DNA from: Geobacteraceae bacterium
GTDB lineage: Bacteria > Desulfobacterota > Desulfuromonadia > Desulfuromonadales > Geopsychrobacteraceae
Reading direction: 5' to 3'
Assembly (NCBI GenBank): GCA_027064785.1
Contig: JAMOPE010000266.1
Coordinates: 1 to 11,094, forward strand
DNA: 11,094 bases
Shown: one piece after another, positions 188 through 10,973 of the stretch
How the letters are laid out: each line of letters begins with the position of its first letter
How positions within the stretch are numbered: position 1 is the first letter of the stretch
Translations under genes and position numbers: made by a program
Notes under the pieces: generated by a model
What the model was told of the DNA's origin: nothing
The model's input: the letters and a program-made list of their open reading frames with translations, nothing else
Database searches by the model: none

Positions 188-373
188 ATGCCCATATTTG
201 AATACCAGTGTGAGCATTGTGGTCAGACCGTAGAAAAGATTCAACGCATTCCGCTTGCCGAAGTTCCCTGCCCGGCATGCGGTAAAAATGCATCAAGAAC
301 AGTCTCCCTGACCTCAGCGAGTGTTTCAACCGGTGGTGGATGCAGTGCCCCGGCAGGAAGCGGTTTTACCTGA
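188..373 (+). CDS. FmdB-family putative zinc ribbon protein
   Basis: A 61-residue protein beginning MPIFEYQCEHCG, the typical opening of the FmdB (CxxC_CxxC_SSSS) zinc ribbon family. Four cysteines, C8, C11, C28 and C31, form two CxxC knuckles expected to bind one zinc. After the ribbon comes a short Ser/Thr and Gly-rich tail with one extra cysteine. The ATG at 188 is chosen because AAAGGAGG at 174-181 lies 6 bases upstream; an in-frame TTG at 182 touches that site and is rejected. Family members are small predicted regulators or metal-binding proteins, and their biochemical role is not settled. The gene is followed after 103 bases by the HesB-like selenoprotein in the same direction, with no terminator with a U-run between them, so co-transcription is likely. 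A job linked to metal or Fe-S handling is inferred from this neighbour only. Confidence 0.88.
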   Translation: MPIFEYQCEHCGQTVEKIQRIPLAEVPCPACGKNASRTVSLTSASVSTGGGCSAPAGSGFT

Positions 374-387
374 GGCTAAACAAAAGA

Positions 388-476: not shown

Positions 477-782
477 ATGTTAACAATCACAGACACAGCA
501 CGTGAAAAGTTCAAAGAGCTAATGAAGGAGCACACGGATAAGTTCCTTCGCGTTGTTTTTGAAGGCTTTGGCTGAGGTGGTCCCAGCCTGGGATTGACTC
601 TGGACGAGTCAAAAAAAGAAGACGAAGTATACACCATCAATGAAATCGAACTGCTGATTGACGAGAACGTTCTTCCTCACACCAAAGAGAGTCAGATCGA
701 CTACATCAGCAATGCTTACGGCGAAGGATTCTCAATTGCTTCTGTCGGCGGCAGCAGTTGTGGAAGCGGTTGCAGTTGCTAA
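477..782 (+). CDS. IscA/HesB-like selenoprotein, Sec at UGA 573-575
   Basis: The full frame is 101 residues if the in-frame UGA at 573-575 is read as selenocysteine (Sec33). It starts at ATG 477 with AAGGAG at 461-466 upstream. The Sec lies in FEGFG-U-GGPSLGL, at the place of the first scaffold cysteine of A-type Fe-S carriers (C35 of IscA). The downstream GEGFSI segment and the C-terminal cysteines C95, C99 and C101 match the NEGFKF and CGC region of IscA. This agrees with the known HesB-like selenoprotein family. The frame stays open and in register on both sides of the UGA, and the encoded protein aligns with the A-type fold throughout. A likely role is Fe-S cluster binding or transfer, or a redox function using Sec, but the exact function of the Sec form is unknown. 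A SECIS-like hairpin follows the UGA. Ordinary gene calling would give a 32-residue stub or only the C-terminal part. Confidence 0.9.
594..612 (+). promoter_or_regulatory. Bacterial SECIS element for Sec insertion
   Basis: TTGACTC at 594-600 pairs perfectly with GAGTCAA at 606-612, leaving a five-base loop TGGAC at 601-605. The loop has G as its second base and begins 25 bases after the UGA. These features fit the general bacterial SECIS description: a short stem in the coding sequence, a small apical loop with a G in its first two bases, and roughly 16-37 bases between UGA and loop. It would bind SelB with Sec-tRNA. The hairpin also encodes part of the protein (around residues L40 to K46). 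It is identified by eye, and no folding energy was calculated. Confidence 0.8.
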
Positions 783-806: not shown

Positions 807-848
807 ACTAAAAGAGCCCCGCTTCTTGAGAAGCGGGGCTCTTTTAGT
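807..848. terminator. Bidirectional intrinsic terminator between convergent units
   Basis: A perfect 19-bp stem (807-825 with 830-848) closes on a TTGA loop. The core is GC-rich (GAGCCCCGCTTC) and is flanked by an A-run on the left and a T-run on the right, so it works in either direction. It ends the FmdB-selenoprotein transcript on the plus strand and the cytochrome bd transcript on the minus strand, whose last gene stops at 866. Confidence 0.93.
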
Positions 849-957: not shown

Positions 958-965
958 CCTCCTTT
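958..965 (-). promoter_or_regulatory. Strong ribosome binding site of the 28-codon gene
   Basis: The minus strand reads TAAAGGAGGTCGTTATG, so AAAGGAGG precedes the ATG at 952 by 5 bases and includes part of the cydB stop codon. This site decides that the tiny frame downstream is a gene and suggests coupling of its translation to cydB. Confidence 0.8.
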
Positions 966-2094
966 AGTAACTCTTCTTATCAGCCGCAAGCTCTTCAAGA
1001 GAGAGCTTCTTGCTGTCCATCTGTCTCCAGGCCCAAATGATATAACCCAGCACAACCGGGATCAACAGGGCAACGTAGGTCATGACAGTCAGGGTGTAGT
1101 GACTGCTTGATGCATTATAGATCGTAAGGCTGCTGTTTAAATCAATTTTAGAGGGATAAAAGGCAGTATTGTTGTACCCGGCAGTAAAAAATACCGCAAG
1201 ACACGTCAACACAGTTCCCAATCCGGAAGGCCAGATCCCGCGTACAGACGGGGTGAAACGATTCAGAACAACACCCAAGACAACCAGAACCAAACCAACC
1301 AGTAATAGAATCAGATTTAAAGGCATTTGAATCAGATTGTGAAGATATTTGTTGGCCTCCAGCACCACTGTTCCATCCACAGGATTGACAGCATAACCGT
1401 CCATGACCACAAGGCGCAGCAGGACAAAGAGGAGGAACGGCAGCAAACACAAAAGGTTATTGAATGCCGCCTTCTTCAGCTTGGCAACGAGTTCCTCATG
1501 ATCAAGATTGCTCGCCAGATACAGAGCACCTAACGTTCTAGCGAGAAAAACCAGAAACAAGCCGAAACTGACGTTGAAGAAACTGAACGCGGCTTCCAAA
1601 CCACGTAACGGATGATGCCACTGAACCAGATTGTAATCGTTCAGAGTAAAGTTGGAGCCGGTAAAGAATGTACCGACAGCCGCTCCAATCAACAGAATTC
1701 CGATTGACCCATTGATAAAGAGAAAAGCGTCATAAACGCCTTTTCCGAGAAAGTTATCGGGCTTGCGCCGATACTCGTAACTAACTGCCTGGATGATAAA
1801 AGTAAAGAGGATCAGAATCCACACCCAGTAGGCACCACCGAAGCTTGTTGCATAAAAAAGCGGGAATGCTGCGAAGAGTGCTCCGCCGAACAGAACCAGG
1901 GATGTAAAGGTCAGTTCCCATTTACGCCCAAGCGAATTGACGACAAGAATCTTTTCATCTTCACTCAAGGACAATGTTGACAACAAGGTCTGCCCGCCCT
2001 GAACAAAGGTCAGGAAAACAAACAAAGACCCAACCAAGGTAGTGATAAACCACCATAATTGTTGTAAAATCGACCAGTCTAAACTGCCAAACAT
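964..2094 (-). CDS. cydB: Cytochrome bd quinol oxidase subunit II
   Basis: A 376-residue polytopic membrane protein, the partner of CydA in the cytoplasmic-membrane bd oxidase that oxidises quinol and reduces O2 to water. Visible segments typical of CydB are LWWFITTLVGSLFVFL (residues 13-28), GRKWELTF (57-64) followed by FGGALFAAFPLFYATSFGGAYW, YNNTAFYPS (307-315) and TIYNASSSHYTL (324-335). About eight or nine hydrophobic helices are apparent. The first helix ends FVQGGQTLL, where E. coli CydB has an Asp-containing DGFDMG stretch. This variant is what I recall from Bacteroidetes and Epsilonproteobacteria-like operons that carry DUF4492. The ATG at 2094 lies 3 bases after the cydA stop, with its AAGGAG site inside the end of cydA, so translation is probably coupled. 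Length is normal for the family. Confidence 0.95.
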   Translation of the reverse strand: MFGSLDWSILQQLWWFITTLVGSLFVFLTFVQGGQTLLSTLSLSEDEKILVVNSLGRKWELTFTSLVLFGGALFAAFPLFYATSFGGAYWVWILILFTFIIQAVSYEYRRKPDNFLGKGVYDAFLFINGSIGILLIGAAVGTFFTGSNFTLNDYNLVQWHHPLRGLEAAFSFFNVSFGLFLVFLARTLGALYLASNLDHEELVAKLKKAAFNNLLCLLPFLLFVLLRLVVMDGYAVNPVDGTVVLEANKYLHNLIQMPLNLILLLVGLVLVVLGVVLNRFTPSVRGIWPSGLGTVLTCLAVFFTAGYNNTAFYPSKIDLNSSLTIYNASSSHYTLTVMTYVALLIPVVLGYIIWAWRQMDSKKLSLEELAADKKSY

Positions 2095-2097
2095 AGT

Positions 2098-3633
2098 TTA
2101 TTCTCCTTCCGGACCAATAGAAATCTGCTTGGCCATAATCTTAAGCTCGGCAATCAGCAAAGCAGTAAACAGAATGAGGAACATAAAGAACGTCACTTCG
2201 ACAGTCCCGGCATCGAGATTAGAGCGGGCAATGGTGACGGGGAGAAGGTCCTGAATCGCCCACGGCTGCCGACCGACTTCGGTCACAATCCAACCTGCTT
2301 CATGGGCAACCAGACCAAGGACAAAGGAAAAGACCCCCAGTTTAAGAAGAAGCGGCTGCTTCTCAAGTTGATCTTTGTACAGAAGGAAAAGGTAGACCAT
2401 AAATAGCAGGATAAAGAAGGTTCCCAGTCCAACCATGACACGGAAAGAATAAAAAATCAGCGGGACATAAGGAACGGCCTGCTCGGCATAATCGAGGTAG
2501 CCGTAGCCCAGATAATCACTATTTTCTTCAAATAGGCTTAGAGCTTTCGTTGCAGCAGCCTGATCTCCTGCTTTCTTAGCGGCTTTATAGTCACCAAGAC
2601 CGGAAACAGCCAGCTTGCCACGTACCATTTTCTCTTTGACACCCATAATATTTTCAGCTTCGTTGCCGAAAACAAGATCATTAATCCCGGGGACAAAACT
2701 GTTGACATCACGATTAGCCAGCAGCGACAGAACCATCGGAACCTTGACCTGGAAGATGAAAGAATCTTCGTCATCACCCGGCTTTTTACTGAAATTCAGT
2801 AGCCCCGCAGCAACCAGCCCTGCGGAATGCTCACCATCATACAATCCTTCCATCGCAGCCAGCTTCATCGGTTGAACGTTGGCAGCATGGTAGGCGTGCT
2901 CATCACCGGTATAAGCAACAAATAGTGAAGCCAGTAACCCGAACGTACAGGCAACGGTCAATGAGCGTTTCGCAAACTTGATATGACGTTTTTTCAACAG
3001 ATACCAGCTGGAAACAGCAACAACAAACAATGACGCATAGAGAAAGGCGGAACCTGTCACGTGAACAAAGTGACTGATCGCAACAGGTGAGAACACCAGT
3101 GCCGCAAAATCGGTCATTTCAAAACGAGCCAGATCAGGATTAAACGTCATTCCAACCGGATGCTGCATCCAGCCGTTAGCGATCAAAATCCAGACAGCCG
3201 AAAGATTGGAACCAATAGCAACCATCCATGTCGCAAACAGGTGAGCTTTCTTTGAAACACGATTCCATCCAAAGAACATTACGGCAAAGAATGTTGCTTC
3301 GAGGAAGAAAGCAGCAATTCCCTCGATCGCCAGCGGCGCCCCGAAGATATCGCCAACCATCCAGGAGTAGTTGGACCAGTTGGTGCCAAATTCAAACTCA
3401 AGAATGATTCCGGTTGCCACACCGATCGCAAAGTTAATCCCGAAGAGGGTCATCCAGAAGCGGGTCAACTTTTTCCAATGCTCATCTCCGGTTTTGACGT
3501 AAATTGACTCGAAAAAAGCGCAGATAAATGACAGGCCCAGTGTCAAAGGAACAAAGATCCAGTGATACATAGCCGTCAGGGCAAACGTGGCTCGCGCCCA
3601 GCTCACCATGGTTAAATCAATCTGTTCAATCAC
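2098..3633 (-). CDS. cydA: Cytochrome bd quinol oxidase subunit I
   Basis: A 511-residue haem-bearing subunit. Aligned by eye to E. coli CydA, the key residues are present with a constant offset: H24 (E. coli H19), E104 and E112 (E99, E107), H191 (H186, b558 ligand) and M400 (M393, b558 ligand). Quinol-loop residues K257 and E262 match K252 and E257. The GRQPW signature is at 454-458. The region from about 245 to 390 between helices is long, so the Q-loop resembles the long type. All residues needed for activity appear intact. The start is GTG at 3633-3631, supported by AGGAGG 6 bases upstream; no ATG lies near that site. The operon order is DUF4492 gene, cydA, cydB, then the 28-codon gene. 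It gives high-affinity O2 respiration or O2 protection in an otherwise anaerobic metabolism (inferred). Confidence 0.97.
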   Translation of the reverse strand: MIEQIDLTMVSWARATFALTAMYHWIFVPLTLGLSFICAFFESIYVKTGDEHWKKLTRFWMTLFGINFAIGVATGIILEFEFGTNWSNYSWMVGDIFGAPLAIEGIAAFFLEATFFAVMFFGWNRVSKKAHLFATWMVAIGSNLSAVWILIANGWMQHPVGMTFNPDLARFEMTDFAALVFSPVAISHFVHVTGSAFLYASLFVVAVSSWYLLKKRHIKFAKRSLTVACTFGLLASLFVAYTGDEHAYHAANVQPMKLAAMEGLYDGEHSAGLVAAGLLNFSKKPGDDEDSFIFQVKVPMVLSLLANRDVNSFVPGINDLVFGNEAENIMGVKEKMVRGKLAVSGLGDYKAAKKAGDQAAATKALSLFEENSDYLGYGYLDYAEQAVPYVPLIFYSFRVMVGLGTFFILLFMVYLFLLYKDQLEKQPLLLKLGVFSFVLGLVAHEAGWIVTEVGRQPWAIQDLLPVTIARSNLDAGTVEVTFFMFLILFTALLIAELKIMAKQISIGPEGE

Positions 3634-3639
3634 GTTTTT

Positions 3640-3645
3640 CCTCCT
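3640..3645 (-). promoter_or_regulatory. Ribosome binding site setting the GTG start of cydA
   Basis: The minus strand reads TAGGAGGAAAAACGTG, so AGGAGG lies 6 bases before GTG at 3633. The next in-frame ATG is eight codons further in and has no such site, so GTG is the start. Confidence 0.85.
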
Positions 3646-3678
3646 ATCCGATTGTGGTTAGGGTTAGCATTCAAAGAA

Positions 3679-3897
3679 TTAATGATTATCCGCCGCAGAT
3701 TGGGTCAGATTAGACAACACATGGTCTGCCCGTTCGGCGTCCGTCGCAAAATTTGTTTCAAGAAAATTCGGGAAAAAGAAAACCTTTAGGATTGCAAACA
3801 TGATGAAAAGCTTGATGAGGATGATTTTCCACAGTGTCCGCCCGAGAACCATCGACCGAAATCCGTCGTAGTACAGACTGAATGCATTTTTAAACAT
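3679..3897 (-). CDS. DUF4492 small membrane protein, first gene of the cyd operon
   Basis: A 72-residue protein opening with MFKNAFSLYYDGFRSM. It has one hydrophobic helix at about residues 24-43 (IILIKLFIMFAILKVFFF) and a polar, acidic tail. The start and its position just ahead of cydA match the DUF4492 family, which is known from cytochrome bd operons. Its function is not established. A role in assembly or stability of the oxidase is inferred from this linkage and from the single helix. The start ATG at 3897 has only a modest AGGTGG-like site upstream. The gap to cydA is 45 bases without a terminator, so the genes are likely one operon. Confidence 0.86.
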   Translation of the reverse strand: MFKNAFSLYYDGFRSMVLGRTLWKIILIKLFIMFAILKVFFFPNFLETNFATDAERADHVLSNLTQSAADNH

Positions 3898-4218: not shown

Positions 4219-6069
4219 ATGAGACAACAAGAAACTCAGCAATCATTGTTTTTGCCAACCGACCGAGCTGAAATGGCACAACGAGGTTGGGACGGGCTGG
4301 ATGTTCTATTCATCACCGGCGATGCCTATATAGACCATCCCGCCTTTGGGACACCTCTCCTGGCACGCCTGCTTGAAAATAAGGGGTTCCGCGTAGGGAT
4401 TGTTGCCCAGCCCGACTGGAAAGATCCAGAATCTTTAAAAGTCATGGGACGGCCGCGATTGTTTGCTGCAATATCTGCCGGAGCAATGGACTCCCTCGTT
4501 AACCATTATACCGCAGCAAAAAAAATCCGCAGCAACGATGCTTATACCCCCGGGGGAGTTGCCGGAAAACGTCCTAACCGTGCAGTTATTGCTTATACCG
4601 CTGCAGTTAAAGGTGCGTTCAAGGGGCTGCCAACCGTCATTGGCGGTATCGAAGCGAGTCTGCGCCGGTTAGCTCACTATGATTACTGGTCAGACAAGGT
4701 CAGACGTTCCATCTTAATCGACAGTAAAGCCGATCTACTCATATTCGGGATGGCGGAAGCGGCAATCCTCGAAATCACCCGGCGACTTGACCGTGGCGAA
4801 CAATTATCAACACTGACCGACATCAGAGGAACGGCCTTTGCGACAAAAGATCGTCCTGATGAGGGAATAATCCTTCCTTCTTTTGAAGAGGTTTTCCAAT
4901 CAACGGATGCATACAATCGAGCTTTCAAGTTGTCAAGTCGGCAGGAAAACCCTTTCTCAGCAAAAATATTGATTCAACCCCATGCCGGGCGGCATGTCGT
5001 CATCAATCCTCCATCATTACCAATAACTGAACCTGAGATGGATAGCATTTATGCCCTCCCTTTCACCAGACAACCACATTCAATGTATACCGAAACGATT
5101 CCTGCGTTTGAGCAGATCCGTTATTCCATCACCAGTCACCGCGGCTGCTTTGGCGGCTGTTCGTTCTGTGCGATTACCCACCATCAGGGGAAAACAATTC
5201 AATCCCGTTCACAGCAATCGATCCTGCGTGAAGTTGAAATTATGACCGCTCAAAAAGATTTTCGCGGGACAATAAGTGATGTCGGTGGTCCAACCGCTAA
5301 TATGTATGGTCTCAAGTGTGGAAATCACGAAGCTGAAAAGGTTTGCCAACGTCCAAGCTGCCTCTATCCAAAGATTTGTAACAATCTGATGACCAGTGAT
5401 CGTCCTGCGACAACACTGCTGCAGTCAATCAGACAGCATGAGAATGTAAAACATACCTTTATTGCGTCGGGAGTTCGTTACGATCTATTTCCTGACCAGC
5501 AGCACTACTTTTCAGATCTACTCCAGCACCATGTTGGGGGTCTGTTAAAGGTTGCGCCCGAATCAACCAGCGATAATGTCACCAAAGTCATGCGCAAACC
5601 GGGGGCAGACGTATTTACCCGCTTTCTTGATCAGTTCCGCCGTGACAGCCGGGAGCTGGGGTTGCGGCAGGCAGTCGTTCCCTACATGATTAGTAATCAT
5701 CCCGGTTGCACGCTGAACGATATGATTGACGTCGCACTCTACTTGAAACGCCATCGCCTCACCGTAGAGCAGGTTCAGGACTTCACTCCGACACCGGGGA
5801 GCCTCTCGACATGTATCTACCACACAGAAAAAGACCCCTATAGCGGTCAACCAATCCATGTGCCGCGTAGCACCAAGGAACGCCAACTGCAAAAATCCCT
5901 GCTTCTCTACCACCGTCCTGAATCACGGGCTAATATTCAGGAAGCCTTAAAAGTTTGCCGTCGTGAAAATGTCACCACTGAACTTCTCGGAGCAATCTCA
6001 GCAGTCAAAAAACGTAAACAAGAGAGCAAGAACCCCAAAAATAGCAGATCTCGCAGAAGATCTTCCTGA
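4219..6069 (+). CDS. ygiQ: YgiQ-family radical SAM protein (UPF0313)
   Basis: A 616-residue protein of the YgiQ family. The N-terminal part opens with LFLPTDRAEMAQRGWDGLDV, typical of the family, and contains the conserved blocks GDAYIDHPAFG, YTPGG and GGIEASLRRLAHYDYW in a cobalamin-domain-like region. The radical SAM cluster motif is C310-x3-C314-x2-C317 within RGCFGGCSFCAI, expected to bind a [4Fe-4S] cluster and S-adenosylmethionine. The later segment CxxPSCLYPKIC supplies further cysteines. The C-terminus is short and very basic (about the last 20 residues rich in K, R, S and N). Its length is shorter than E. coli YgiQ (about 739 residues) but within family range. The substrate of the family is unknown. 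The ATG at 4219 is chosen because family homology begins within ten residues, although no clear ribosome binding site is visible. It appears to be a single-gene unit. Confidence 0.94.
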   Translation: MRQQETQQSLFLPTDRAEMAQRGWDGLDVLFITGDAYIDHPAFGTPLLARLLENKGFRVGIVAQPDWKDPESLKVMGRPRLFAAISAGAMDSLVNHYTAAKKIRSNDAYTPGGVAGKRPNRAVIAYTAAVKGAFKGLPTVIGGIEASLRRLAHYDYWSDKVRRSILIDSKADLLIFGMAEAAILEITRRLDRGEQLSTLTDIRGTAFATKDRPDEGIILPSFEEVFQSTDAYNRAFKLSSRQENPFSAKILIQPHAGRHVVINPPSLPITEPEMDSIYALPFTRQPHSMYTETIPAFEQIRYSITSHRGCFGGCSFCAITHHQGKTIQSRSQQSILREVEIMTAQKDFRGTISDVGGPTANMYGLKCGNHEAEKVCQRPSCLYPKICNNLMTSDRPATTLLQSIRQHENVKHTFIASGVRYDLFPDQQHYFSDLLQHHVGGLLKVAPESTSDNVTKVMRKPGADVFTRFLDQFRRDSRELGLRQAVVPYMISNHPGCTLNDMIDVALYLKRHRLTVEQVQDFTPTPGSLSTCIYHTEKDPYSGQPIHVPRSTKERQLQKSLLLYHRPESRANIQEALKVCRRENVTTELLGAISAVKKRKQESKNPKNSRSRRRSS

Positions 6070-6309: not shown

Positions 6310-8034
6310 ATGTCAAAAAACAAAATGAAGCCCTCATTGCAAAATCCGCTCGCAGCTGCAGAAGAAGTCGAGTTCACCATTCCCGGTGAAGTTGCGGGTC
6401 AGTCAGGTCCTTACGAAGAGGTCATGAAGGAAGGCCACGATCTGATCCAGCGCCCGATAAAATCGGTTGCCGTCGGTCAAATTGAGAAACAGCATTTTAA
6501 AAAAAGGATGACCGTTTGGGAAAGAATTAAGGTCCTCACCGACAGCGAGCCGAACATTCTTTTCCAGAACTGGGGAAAGAACCTTGACGGTGCTTCATTG
6601 GTCACAGGTATCCTGAATATTGGTGGTCGTGATGTTGCCCTTTACGGACACGATTTTACTGTCCGTGCAGGCTCTATTGATGCAACCAATGGTCAAAAAC
6701 TTGCTCGCTTGATGAACATGGCTGGCGAAAAAGGAATCCCACTCATCGGGATGAACGACTCGGCCGGTGCCTTTGTTCCCGCCGGTGTCGGTGGTCTCGA
6801 CGGTTATGCCGAAGCATTTACTGCTCTGCGTAAAATCAGCGGTGTCGTTCCGACTGTCATGTGTATGTTTGGCTTCAATGCCGGTGGCGGTTCCTATCTA
6901 CCACGACAAGGCAGCTTTGTTATCCAACCTGAAGATACCTTCTTCGGTCTGACGGGTCCGGGGGTTGTTAAGTCGGTTCTTGGTGAGGATATCACTCCCG
7001 AAGAACTCGGCGGACCAAAGGTTCATGCTGCGACAGGGGTTTCAGACATAACAGTTGCCGATGAGACAGCCGCACTGAGAACCGCAGTCCGCTTACTCAG
7101 TTATGTTCCGGACAACAATTTTTCCATGGCTCCATTCCAGGAGACCAGCGATCCACTCGACCGGAAAACCTGGGAGATCAACACTCTGTTGAAAAAAGCC
7201 TTCAATTCACCGACAGGTTTCAATACTCCATTTGATGTTTCGATCGTTATCCAGCAAATCTGTGATCATGGCGATTATTTTGAAATTCAGCCGACCCGTG
7301 CCCGTGAAGCGATCACCGCTTTCGGTCGTCTGGGCGGAAACGTTGTCGGTTTCGTCGCCAACAATTCGGCAGTCTCCTCAGGTCAGATCGACTGTGATTC
7401 TGCTGTCAAGATCGCCCGGTTTGTCCGTTTCTGTAACATCTACAACATTCCATTGATCTTCATGGAAGACACCACCGGATTCCTGCCGGGCCGAGATCAG
7501 GAAGCCCGCGGTATCGTTCAAGCCGGTCGCTCGATGCTCGATTCAATTGTTGATGTCCGTACTCCACGCATCTTACTGATTTTGCGGAATGCTTACGGTG
7601 GTGCTTACGCTTCCTACAACAACTATCCCACCGGAGCCGATTTGGTTCTGGCTCTGCCGACCACCCGCCTTGCAGTTATGGGTCCGGCCGGTAAAGAGTT
7701 TGTCTACAAAAAAGAGTTGCGGGCACTGCGTGGATCAATCAAGCAGCGAGTCGCTGACGGAACTCTGGAGCGGACCAAAGCTGGAATGGACGGAGCCGAT
7801 GCTAAAGCCGATGCTGAGAAAGAGGCGGCTGAGTGGCTCAAACTTGAAGAAGCGGCTCTGAATATGCGTTACGAAAAAGAATTGATGAACCCAAAAGAGG
7901 GTCTTGCTCTCGGCTCGATCTCTTCACTGGTTATGCCGACCGATCTGCGTAAAGTTTTGGGAGAAAATCTCAACTTCTTCCTGCGCCATTACAAGCCATC
8001 GGCATGGCAGGGAGTTCAGCGCGAATTCCATTAA
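6310..8034 (+). CDS. Biotin-dependent acyl-CoA carboxylase, carboxyltransferase subunit
   Basis: A 574-residue carboxyltransferase (two crotonase-like halves) that moves the carboxyl group from carboxybiotin to an acyl-CoA. The N-terminal half includes [13 protein letters not shown], the NDSAGAF segment, [12 protein letters not shown] with the oxyanion glycines, and [20 protein letters not shown], typical of propionyl/acetyl-CoA carboxylase beta chains. The C-terminal half includes [14 protein letters not shown] and [12 protein letters not shown] (428 onward). Residue A434 stands where propionyl-CoA carboxylases have the substrate-influencing Asp (GGAYD). Between VMGPAGKEF and MNPKEG the segment is about 25-30 residues longer than usual and rich in A, K and E, probably helical. 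The start is at ATG 6310. The biotin carboxylase gene follows after 62 bases without a terminator, so the two form one enzyme. The substrate is undetermined. Confidence 0.9.
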
Positions 8035-8096: not shown

Positions 8097-10973
8097 ATGG
8101 CTCAAAATACAGATTTATACGCAAACAACCCGTTGATTCATAAAGATCGTCGACTCGGCAAATCTTCGTCTGAGTGGGTTCGTTCTTTTGCCTGTGAGGA
8201 TCTGGCTCCTTTGATCGTCTGTCGCGGTCCGATCCGTAAAGAAGCAATGGATGTCTATACCGAAATGGGAATCACCCACTTTGGCATCCTACTGTCAGAA
8301 AAAGATTCTATCGTTTACCCCAATGCCCTGTCCCCGGAGCTGCGTCAGCTTACCGATACCAGCCGGGTTCATCGTGTTCCGGATTATTCGGGAGCATCCA
8401 AGGAAGAGCGGGTTGAAAGAATCCAGCAGATTATCGATATTGCCAAGGACAATGGCTACAACGCTGTCTTCTCCGGTTACGGTTTCATGGCCGAAGATGA
8501 TGAGTTTGTTGCTGCCATTGAAGATGCCGGACTGATGTTTATTGGTCCCTGCGCTGCAACTCAACGGGCTGCAGGTAAAAAGGACGAGGCAAAACGGACA
8601 GCACTTCAGGTTAACGTATCAGTAACACCGGGTATCGATAACGTGACCGCCCGGACTCTGCTGAAAAAACATCCGACCTATGACCAGCTGTTGGCGTTGG
8701 TGAAAGCCAAAGATCTCAACGTTGACAAAAAGGTCCTTGAGAACAAAGATCTGCCTCTCGAAGAACTGGCAGATATGATCCTCTTTGCTTCCTACGACAA
8801 AGGAATTGACCTCTTTACTATCGAAGAGCTCTGCGCTCAAGTTGAAATTGAGTGTGCCGAAATGTTCAAGAACTATCCCGGTGCCAGAATTCGCCTCAAA
8901 GCAATCGGCGGCGGTGGCGGTAAAGGACAGCGGATTCTTGGTGCATCTCTGCTGACCGTTAAAAATCCAACCGAGAAGCAGATCAAAGAGGCGGCATCTG
9001 ATGCCCCGAGCCTAGTTCGTGAAATTCTCAATGAAGTTAAAACCAACGGTGTTGGCGACAACAAAAACATTCTGGTCGAATTGAACATCGAGCAAACCCG
9101 TCACAATGAAATTCAGCTGCTGGGGAATGGAAAGTGGAGTATTGCACTTGGCGGTCGTGACTGCTCATTGCAGATGCACGAACAGAAACTACTTGAAATC
9201 TCCGTCACTCAGGAAAGTCTTGCTGATGAGATCGCAAAAGCCAAGAAGGCTGGACTGAAGAAACAGCAGGCTGCTCTTGAATCGGATCTTAAAGTTCTGA
9301 AGCGGATGGAAGAAGAATCAGAGCGTTTCGGTGAAGCTGTCGGACTTGACTCTGCTTCAACCTTCGAATGTATCGTCGACGGAAGTCGCCACTACTTCAT
9401 GGAAGTGAACACCCGGATTCAGGTTGAACACCGCGTTACCGAGCTTGTTTACAGCCTCAAATTTACCAACCCTGATGATGAGAACGATTTCTTCATCGTT
9501 GAGTCTCTGGTCGAAGCAATGGCTCTTCTGGCAATGCACAAACAACGCCTGCCCCGCCCGACCCGCGTCTCCCGTTTTGGTGCGGCAGCTGAAGCACGGT
9601 TGAATGCAACCGACTGCTCACTCTCTCCAAGTGCCGGTGGTTACGTCCGTTACTGGTCCAAGCCAATTGAAGGGGAAATTCGTGATGACCAGGGGATTTG
9701 TATCCCTAACCCTGACACCAACCAGTTCATGCGTTACCACCTTGCCGGAGCCTACGATTCCAATATCGCCCTATTACTGACCAAGGGTGATGACCGCAGT
9801 GCAAGTTATGAGCATCTCTCCAAAGTCCTCCGCAGTACAGTCCTGCGTGGTACAAACCTGGCAACCAACCTTGAATTTCATTATGGTCTGGTCAACTGGT
9901 TTATCGGCAACGGGATTATGGCAAAGCCAACAACCCGCTTTGTTGTCCCCTACCTGACCTTGGTTGGGAAAATCAAAGAGGAAGCTCAGAAAATTGATGT
10001 CGTTTATGCCTTCATCGCCATGAAGAAGCATTACGCTAAACTTTATGCTGACAACCCTGAAGCATTGAAGGCTGTTTCAGAGACCCTCGACCGCAAAGGG
10101 ACTTTACTGACCCGGCCAATGGAGAAGCTCCTCACTGATCCCCATTTACTCTCGGGCTGGTTGAGTCTTAATCGCAAAAAATTCAGCATTAAAGATGGCA
10201 AAGTCACCTGGCTGTGTAACCCGCTGGTTATTCTTGAAGAGACTTACGAGTATCTCAATATGACCTGGCGTAAAGAGGCTCCGGCAGCTGAAGTTATCTG
10301 GACTCATGACCGTGATCTTCTTAACAGTGCTGTCTCTTTCTACGCTGAATTACGTGATCATTTCTCACTTAGCAAAGAAGAGTTTGTGAAACTCAACGAC
10401 ATCCTTGGCAAAACAAAACCACAAGGTGGCTACGATGCTGAAGCATGGGCACAGATTCAAGCCGCTCATGCCGGTTTTGAGATGGGCAACGAGCTCCTCG
10501 GCCTCCTGTTTATGATCGCTGACAAAATTGACTTCTATGCATTTAAAGTTGAAGACGATCTTGAAGTGACAATCCCTGAGTATCTTCATGACCCAGAGTT
10601 ACAAGCGGCTATGAAGAAGATTCTGGTTCCACCACCGGCAACCAAAGCCGATGAAATTGTTACTCCGGGTGGAGGGATGTACTATGCTCAGGAAGCTCCG
10701 GGAATGCCGCCTTTCGTAGCTGAGGGGATGCATTTTGACAAAGGGCAGCCACTCTTCATCCTTGAAGTCATGAAAATGTTCAACAAAGTTCCTGCACCAT
10801 TTGCCGGAACGATCGACAAGATCATTATTGAAGGTGGCGACGGAACAATTGTTCAAAAGGGTCAACCACTCTTCAAGGTGACCCCAGACGAGAAATTTGT
10901 TGAAGTCGATCCGAAAGCACTGGCAAAAGAGAAGCAAACGGTCACTGCTGAATTTTTGCAAAGCGTCTTGTAG
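8097..10973 (+). CDS. Large biotin carboxylase with C-terminal biotinyl domain
   Basis: A 958-residue polypeptide that would carboxylate its own biotin with ATP and bicarbonate and pass the carboxyl group to the upstream carboxyltransferase. Residues about 30-160 form the biotin carboxylase N-domain. K161 or K162 matches E. coli BC K116, K268 matches K159, and the glycine loop is G271-G275 then K276-G277. Q359 and K364 match Q233 and K238. E436, N438, R440, Q442, V443 and E444 match E288 to E296, and R501 matches R338. Catalytic residues are thus kept, but E362 replaces H236. About 64 extra residues lie between K162 and K268, and about 22 between K364 and E436 (Lys/Glu-rich, helical). Residues about 600-850 match no domain I recognise. 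From about 855 a biotinyl domain carries EVMKM with K893 as the biotin site. It is clearly longer than usual alpha chains (about 660-700). Confidence 0.9.
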   Translation: MAQNTDLYANNPLIHKDRRLGKSSSEWVRSFACEDLAPLIVCRGPIRKEAMDVYTEMGITHFGILLSEKDSIVYPNALSPELRQLTDTSRVHRVPDYSGASKEERVERIQQIIDIAKDNGYNAVFSGYGFMAEDDEFVAAIEDAGLMFIGPCAATQRAAGKKDEAKRTALQVNVSVTPGIDNVTARTLLKKHPTYDQLLALVKAKDLNVDKKVLENKDLPLEELADMILFASYDKGIDLFTIEELCAQVEIECAEMFKNYPGARIRLKAIGGGGGKGQRILGASLLTVKNPTEKQIKEAASDAPSLVREILNEVKTNGVGDNKNILVELNIEQTRHNEIQLLGNGKWSIALGGRDCSLQMHEQKLLEISVTQESLADEIAKAKKAGLKKQQAALESDLKVLKRMEEESERFGEAVGLDSASTFECIVDGSRHYFMEVNTRIQVEHRVTELVYSLKFTNPDDENDFFIVESLVEAMALLAMHKQRLPRPTRVSRFGAAAEARLNATDCSLSPSAGGYVRYWSKPIEGEIRDDQGICIPNPDTNQFMRYHLAGAYDSNIALLLTKGDDRSASYEHLSKVLRSTVLRGTNLATNLEFHYGLVNWFIGNGIMAKPTTRFVVPYLTLVGKIKEEAQKIDVVYAFIAMKKHYAKLYADNPEALKAVSETLDRKGTLLTRPMEKLLTDPHLLSGWLSLNRKKFSIKDGKVTWLCNPLVILEETYEYLNMTWRKEAPAAEVIWTHDRDLLNSAVSFYAELRDHFSLSKEEFVKLNDILGKTKPQGGYDAEAWAQIQAAHAGFEMGNELLGLLFMIADKIDFYAFKVEDDLEVTIPEYLHDPELQAAMKKILVPPPATKADEIVTPGGGMYYAQEAPGMPPFVAEGMHFDKGQPLFILEVMKMFNKVPAPFAGTIDKIIIEGGDGTIVQKGQPLFKVTPDEKFVEVDPKALAKEKQTVTAEFLQSVL

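Follow-up and report, generated by a model that had tools for sequence, protein, structure and literature searches.

A candidate two-selenoprotein locus in a Geobacteraceae bacterium: a HesB/IscA-like gene with an in-frame UGA beside an FmdB-type gene with a predicted penultimate selenocysteine

Organization of the Locus

The window, that is, the whole stretch of 11,094 nucleotides of Geobacteraceae DNA that was analysed, carries two short neighboring genes on its plus strand, an FmdB-family zinc-ribbon gene and, 97 nt downstream of it, a HesB/IscA-like gene (Table 1). The 3′ end of the former reads GSGFT-UGA-GGC-UAA. In the latter, whose ATG at 477 is directly preceded by AAGGAG, translation of TGA as U yields a frame with a single UGA, which places U33 in the context FEGFG-U-GGPSLGL, and a C-terminus that reads SSCGSGCSC (CxxxCxC). 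When the window was scanned with the Rfam models, no match reached the gathering score, the region 808-847 giving sub-threshold matches only.

The rest of the window is occupied by genes of other kinds. The stretch from 964 to 3897 holds, on the minus strand, cydB, cydA, for which GTG is the first start listed, and a DUF4492 gene, which together look like a cytochrome bd oxidase operon. They are followed by a gene for a YgiQ-family radical SAM protein (4219-6069, TIGR03904), a carboxyltransferase gene (6310-8034) and a gene for a 958-aa fusion of biotin carboxylase and biotin carrier (8097-10973), the last two scoring under every NCBIfam cut-off listed.

Table 1. Features of the two-gene locus, with positions in the window.
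Feature	Position	Strand	Basis or remark
FmdB-family zinc-ribbon gene, MPIFEYQCEHCG...CPACG...GGGCSAPAGSGFT-U-G-stop (TAA 377-379)	188..379	+	PF09723 and TIGR02605 above cut-off; same tail in relatives
UGA, read as putative penultimate Sec62 of the FmdB-type protein	371..373	+	First stop is UGA in 77/77 tail-type genes
SECIS-like hairpin AAGGUGG-AGUU-CCACCUU, beyond the TAA	388..405	+	-10.4 kcal/mol; stem covaries in relatives; fits the bSECIS model
HesB/IscA-like selenoprotein gene (predicted)	477..782	+	101 residues + TAA; family models, fold, conservation
In-frame UGA, predicted Sec33, at the scaffold-cysteine position	573..575	+	UGA in 29/31 covering sequences; structure alignment
SECIS-like hairpin UUGACUC-UGGAC-GAGUCAA	594..612	+	Loop starts 25 nt after the UGA; inside the coding sequence
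Terminator-like hairpin with T run, 3′ of the HesB gene	808..847 (about)	+	Sequence

The HesB/IscA-Like Gene

A first-pass annotation of this DNA had proposed that the frame encodes a HesB/IscA-like protein in which one UGA stands at the position of the conserved scaffold cysteine, and comparisons with family models and structures bear this out. The protein matches the A-type carrier domain model PF01521 (29.6 bits, Pfam cut-off 26.3). With C typed for U, it matches NF038090 (IscA_HesB_Se) over its full length at 82.0 bits, below the cut-off of 85, and TIGR01911 (HesB_rel_seleno) at 60.1 bits, below that of 66.35. Its predicted structure has the IscA/SufA fold, with IscA 1r94 (E 5.6e-6, TM 0.72) and SufA 2d2a among the Foldseek matches, and U33 lines up with the GCSG cysteine of 2apn, 1nwb and IscA 1r94. 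Together with the existence of relatives that have Cys at this position (see below), these matches support the interpretation as a HesB/IscA-like protein in which selenocysteine (Sec) would replace the scaffold cysteine.

By its fold and the alignment of U33, the protein resembles the A-type Fe-S carriers IscA, SufA and ErpA, from which it differs by the predicted Sec in place of that cysteine; its scores also fall well short of the equivalog cut-offs for all three. With the HesB-like selenoproteins it shares its length, its fold family and a single predicted Sec in U-x-G-P at the scaffold position, while it differs from them in staying just under both curated cut-offs and in adjoining an FmdB-type gene. 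The window gene is very likely a further member of this family. That the family is established, as had been stated at the outset, agrees with the literature: HesB-like selenoproteins with the motif UxGP are listed as experimentally verified (PMC13188914), one was assigned to Desulfuromonas acetoxidans in 2006 (PMC1794560), and that of Methanococcus maripaludis was found by mutagenesis and 75Se labelling, a disruption mutant still fixing nitrogen according to an unpublished observation cited in the same source (PMC11097638).

A match to the gene was found in 32 of 60 genomes, that of the window included, which gave 35 rows, 31 of them with an in-frame TGA; the other four comprise a fragment at the end of a contig (G003), a pair of rows from G042 and a single row from G034. 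Thirty-three sequences were compared, namely the window, L030-L058 and L024-L026 (L019-L023 being the same contigs as L030-L034), and 31 cover the scaffold position, L024 and L054 being fragments without it. At residue 33, where homologues with U or C had been anticipated, both occur: 29 of the 31 sequences have UGA, including that of Clostridium thermopalmarium (L025), one has Cys (L058), and one, the distant archaeal L026, has neither. Cys is also present in the database protein P0031, within GFGCGGPSLGLTLDES, and this Cys form is closely similar to the UGA form L056.

In the alignment of relatives, conservation is continuous across the UGA, and pN/pS 3′ of it ranges from 0.10 to 0.38 in comparisons with 14 relatives. 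The frame beyond the UGA is under purifying selection, and the possibility that it ends there with no conservation downstream, which had been named as fatal to the selenoprotein reading, is refuted by both observations. The C-terminal CxxxCxC motif is present in the window and typical of the genus, but it does not extend to the whole family, many relatives having only one or two C-terminal Cys.

The expectation that routine annotation would split or lose the gene proved correct. Among 36 relatives from protein databases, 15 are full-length with W at the UGA, one is the Cys form P0031 and one differs (P0037); the remainder are 16 downstream fragments of 57-65 aa, 11 of which were assigned by length only, and three upstream fragments that end at the UGA. 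The gene is thus broken in much annotation. Decoding of the UGA as tryptophan, as those 15 copies would have it, was rejected because sister proteins have Cys there and the genome encodes a tRNA-Sec. A second Sec, considered for 12 relatives that end in Cys-UGA, was also rejected, since a second stop within three codons follows in L038 only and the sequence beyond is unconserved. L050 (G054:C1:1120631-1121299) holds a tandem pair of HesB-like genes, both of which have an in-frame UGA at the scaffold position. Fifteen matches on plasmids are Firmicute relatives (31-42%).

The hairpin that follows the UGA within the HesB coding sequence has five inner pairs that form in all 29 UGA sequences, with paired changes at three of the five, and two outer pairs that fail in seven and one of these sequences. 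Its loop, UGGAC at 25 nt, agrees with the bacterial SECIS model of PMC13188914 (16-37 nt, G[G/U] loop). Codon constraint accounts for part of this conservation, and the changes are confounded by coding.

The FmdB-Family Neighbor

The gene upstream scores over the cut-offs of TIGR02605 and PF09723, which describe the CxxC...CxxC ribbon, and in a set of relatives termed A2 all 41 members match the two models, with E up to 1 and 0.01. Ribbon cysteines 8, 11, 28 and 31 are invariant in A2 and in 30 order-level genes; in the latter, Cys52 of the tail is nearly invariant and the UGA at 62 invariant. In the predicted structure, pLDDT is about 90 for the ribbon and about 55 for the tail.

For the analysis of the tail, loci were chosen by protein similarity, with no selection on the kind of stop. 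An order-level search of 136 genomes, 113 of which had a match, provided 30 loci that were fetched and read, and all 30 end in GF[T/G/S]-UGA, with one or two more codons before a further stop. A profile search of the phylum (395 genomes, 385 with a match) provided 30 loci and 40 more that were hand-picked from its listed matches for reaching far into the tail. Removal from these 100 loci of four repeats and of L145 and L146, which the pattern missed (both GGGFT-UGA with a five-codon tail), left 94 distinct genes. Genes were assigned to the tail type if [F/H][S/T/G/R] or GST precedes the first stop; this rule was drawn up once the sequences had been seen, and under it the first stop is TGA in 77 of 77 genes. 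A second in-frame stop follows within one or two codons in 74 of them (61 and 13, respectively); in the three exceptions (GST-UGA) the tail is 6-7 codons long, and a hairpin of the same type is present. Among the 17 other FmdB genes, the first stops are eight TAA, two TAG and seven TGA, and none has a near second stop. The background was taken from 205 other long ORFs at these loci (repeats included): TGA terminates 96 of them, and in 25 another stop follows within three codons. The 74 tail-type genes with a near second stop span 25 families of one phylum, as counted from family labels.

The codon after the UGA in these 74 genes most often specifies Gly (34: GGC 13, GGT 11, GGA 6, GGG 4) or Ala (25: GCC 13, GCT 5, GCA 4, GCG 3), while Lys (5) and Arg (4) come next, besides five others. 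As their second stop, the tail-type genes use TAA in 31 cases, TGA in 22 and TAG in 21. Since all four third bases are used after the UGA and all three stops occur second, selection acts on the amino acid and on stopping and not on a fixed DNA motif. One tail reads FGFS-UGA-Cys-stop (L161), so that a terminal Cys would follow the Sec.

At the protein level, no Cys counterpart of the predicted Sec was found among 138 database relatives (26 plus the listed 120 of 2032, overlapping), and none continues past this point; the tail motif stands at the end in 134 of them, and RST, RLT or RPT at the same place in the other four. The public gene calls examined stop at the UGA. A plasmid search for FmdB forms gave no match.

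The Hairpin Beyond the FmdB Stop Codon

According to the bacterial SECIS model, the loop has 3-9 nt, with G in its first two positions and then mostly G/U, it lies 16-37 nt from the UGA, and the stem has 4-16 bp and a folding energy of at most -7.5 kcal/mol (PMC13188914). Such elements have been placed inside coding regions (PMC1088965; PMC13188914). In the window, the FmdB hairpin has a 7-bp stem, and its AGUU loop begins 21 nt after the UGA. With a stem of at least 5 bp and a distance of 15-24 nt, the model fits 68 of the 74 tail genes versus 18 of 200 ORF ends and one of the 17 other FmdB genes (24 rows minus four repeats and the three GST genes); at the full 16-37 nt, it fits 68 of 74 versus 40 of 200. 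A stem of at least 6 bp is found in 65 of the 74 tail genes versus 14% of shuffled copies.

Covariation was assessed on 32 aligned hairpins, out of 61, that had been selected for having a GU loop with three or more pairs next to it, so that pairing of the inner part is favored in the figures: 91.2% of the cells are paired, versus a shuffled mean of 56.8% and 30-50% in slid versions, with 77 two-sided changes. The hairpin of the window itself, which has a 4-nt loop, is outside the 32.

Genomic Company of the FmdB Gene

In two genome sets, selB was found over the cut-off in 53 of 56 and 20 of 22 genomes with a UGA-type FmdB gene; it is very common in the group, so that its presence says little. 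The five exceptions among these 78 genomes are G000, G020 (partial match), G073, G107 and G144. G073 is the most awkward of them, as this genome, listed as 99% complete, has a UGA-type FmdB gene with a hairpin (L102). In G057, listed as complete and also without selB over the cut-off, there is only a distant FmdB match.

Of the 46 loci with sufficient flanking sequence, 15 have the gene for the HesB-type protein with predicted Sec directly downstream of FmdB. G001 holds the two genes side by side (L080 and L037), the predicted end of L080 being ...GFT-U-G. In five others of the 46 loci (L130, L131, L132, L133 and L141), a thioredoxin-fold frame begins at most 90 nt downstream of the FmdB UGA, and that of L131 matches the thioredoxin equivalog model. 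In one family (L120, L128 and L134), cytochrome b-like proteins, which on visual inspection seem fused to a heavy-metal-associated domain, are encoded near a UGA-type FmdB gene.

Comparison With Known Selenoproteins

A predicted FmdB selenoprotein (TIGR02605) was described from the GOS metagenome with the Sec motif CxxU (PMC2398784), the motif is given as U/CxxU in PMC9312934, and the sole FmdB form in the selenoprotein table of 2026 is UxxU (PMC13188914). The window protein belongs to the same zinc-ribbon family and also has a predicted Sec, but it keeps all four ribbon cysteines, which are invariant, and has no Sec inside a CxxC-type motif like that of the GOS type, its own predicted Sec being penultimate in the tail. 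Animal thioredoxin reductase ends in GCUG. UXX-star and KCU-star, going by their names, have Sec near the C-terminus. These three resemble the tail-form FmdB in the place of the Sec and differ from it in fold. UXX-star and KCU-star are named as bacterial families in the table of PMC13188914, and no model of their type is among the matches listed for NCBIfam scans of the tail-form FmdB (25 of 99 families). NF041197, a model for small proteins with two CXXC motifs that also figures in the table of 2026, was considered as possibly the same family and rejected; it is not among the matches listed for four FmdB members, for the first of the 41 members, or in the 25 of 99 families shown for all 41.

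In the literature searched, which lay mostly outside subscription journals and included the accessible part of the deep-Sep paper, no report of an FmdB protein with a C-terminal Sec was found. The adjacent FmdB tail form is the novel part of the locus and likely constitutes a new selenoprotein subfamily, distinct from the CxxU/UxxU FmdB proteins.

Selenocysteine Machinery

As to the sel genes, whose absence from the genome had been proposed to argue against Sec, the outcome is mixed. The tRNA-Sec (selC) is present in the draft genome of the window at 70.8 bits (gathering 47), and ARAGORN agrees. There is no match for selA in the draft, and selB and selD were not found in it either, their best matches scoring 180.6 bits (cut-off 242; EF-Tu-like by size) and 67.7 (cut-off 125). 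The draft comprises 2.37 Mb in 468 contigs, and genus relatives reach up to 3.7 Mb. Over the 60 genomes, that of the window included, selB is over the cut-off in 53, and the seven genus relatives that were fetched all have selA followed by selB, six of them also selD (L076 ends within selB).

A common gene block follows the sel operon in five genus relatives, and a version of it without two of its genes does so in L074. The same flank block is found in the draft on contig C186. A plain contig-end gap at the junction, looked for by synteny, is not supported, because the block on C186 continues for 6 kb and no sel gene appears there. Both a missing contig after rearrangement and a true loss fit this arrangement, and we favor the missing contig given the two intact UGA genes and the tRNA-Sec. 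A pabB-like gene adjoins selA in L071, L073 and L075 and has only a 43% match in the draft, which says little because it is not beside selA in L072 and L076 either.

Alternative Readings

The FmdB UGA might be an ordinary stop, in which case UGA-X-stop would represent two stops in tandem and the hairpin would be a conserved element of a regulatory or terminator-like kind. The absence of Cys forms from the 138 relatives examined, the end of the examined public gene calls at the UGA, and the presence of the gene in G073, where selB was not found over the cut-off, fit this reading. We nonetheless regard it as unlikely, as the first stop is UGA in all 77 genes and never UAA or UAG, compared with UGA in 96 of the 205 other long ORFs. 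Furthermore, the codon after the UGA shows synonymous variation, each of the three stop codons is found in second place, the loop and spacing of the hairpin fit the SECIS model, and in tailless FmdB genes of this phylum neither feature is seen, apart from a single hairpin among 17 that looks like a chance occurrence.

It is also conceivable that the Sec machinery was recently lost in this organism and that both genes are decaying relics, a reading that would account for the failure to find selA, selB and selD in the draft and for the flank block that continues without them. The tRNA-Sec, well over its gathering score, the intact state of both UGAs and both hairpins, the absence of any other in-frame stop from either frame and the small size of the fragmented draft relative to the genus make it quite improbable. 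It is scarcely credible that the UGA in the HesB frame truly ends translation or stems from misassembly, with 594-782 forming a separate short gene: a TTG start at 594 would give a 62-aa ORF, and such fragments are present in public collections, but the UGA is found in 29 of the 31 covering sequences, conservation is unbroken across it, the Cys forms P0031 and L058 are continuous, and the predicted fold spans both halves.

Proposed Mechanism and Significance

Most probably, the two-gene unit at 188-782 encodes two selenoproteins, one HesB-like and one of FmdB type with a penultimate Sec. The computed basis of this proposal comprises the conserved UGAs, the selection beyond the HesB UGA, the covarying FmdB hairpins, the short-tail rule and the HesB fold; we infer from it Sec insertion itself, the functions of both proteins and their joint action, the last of which is suggested by their adjacency. 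In the HesB protein, the UGA would be decoded as Sec33, which would replace the first conserved Fe/cluster-ligand cysteine of the A-type carrier fold. Sec33 and the C-terminal cysteine(s) probably bind iron or an Fe-S cluster, or might perform thiol chemistry.

The FmdB protein is predicted to consist of a folded zinc ribbon (residues 1-40) and a flexible Gly/Ser tail with Cys52 and Sec62. SelB, bound to the hairpin after the stop codon, would deliver Sec at the UGA, after which one glycine would be added and translation would end at the TAA. The flexibility of the tail, with Cys52 and the UGA at 62, suggests a mobile arm, probably a redox or metal-binding one that might be reduced by a thioredoxin and that may cycle through a selenenylsulfide or hold metal.

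More broadly, we think it likely that the tail-form FmdB beside HesB represents a phylum-wide, unlisted selenoprotein subfamily with a penultimate Sec, a flexible Cys...Sec arm and a 3′ untranslated SECIS, which the public gene calls examined cut one or two residues short and which, in the family of the window, would work with HesB as a selenium-dependent metal/Fe-S or redox relay. With a missing piece of one or two residues, the annotation looks intact, which would explain why the form was overlooked. If real, the tail form adds a selenoprotein subfamily of 74 genes in 25 families of one phylum and implies that bacterial SECIS elements can sit entirely downstream of the stop codon. A reactive C-terminal Sec would moreover give a chemical clue to the function of the FmdB family.
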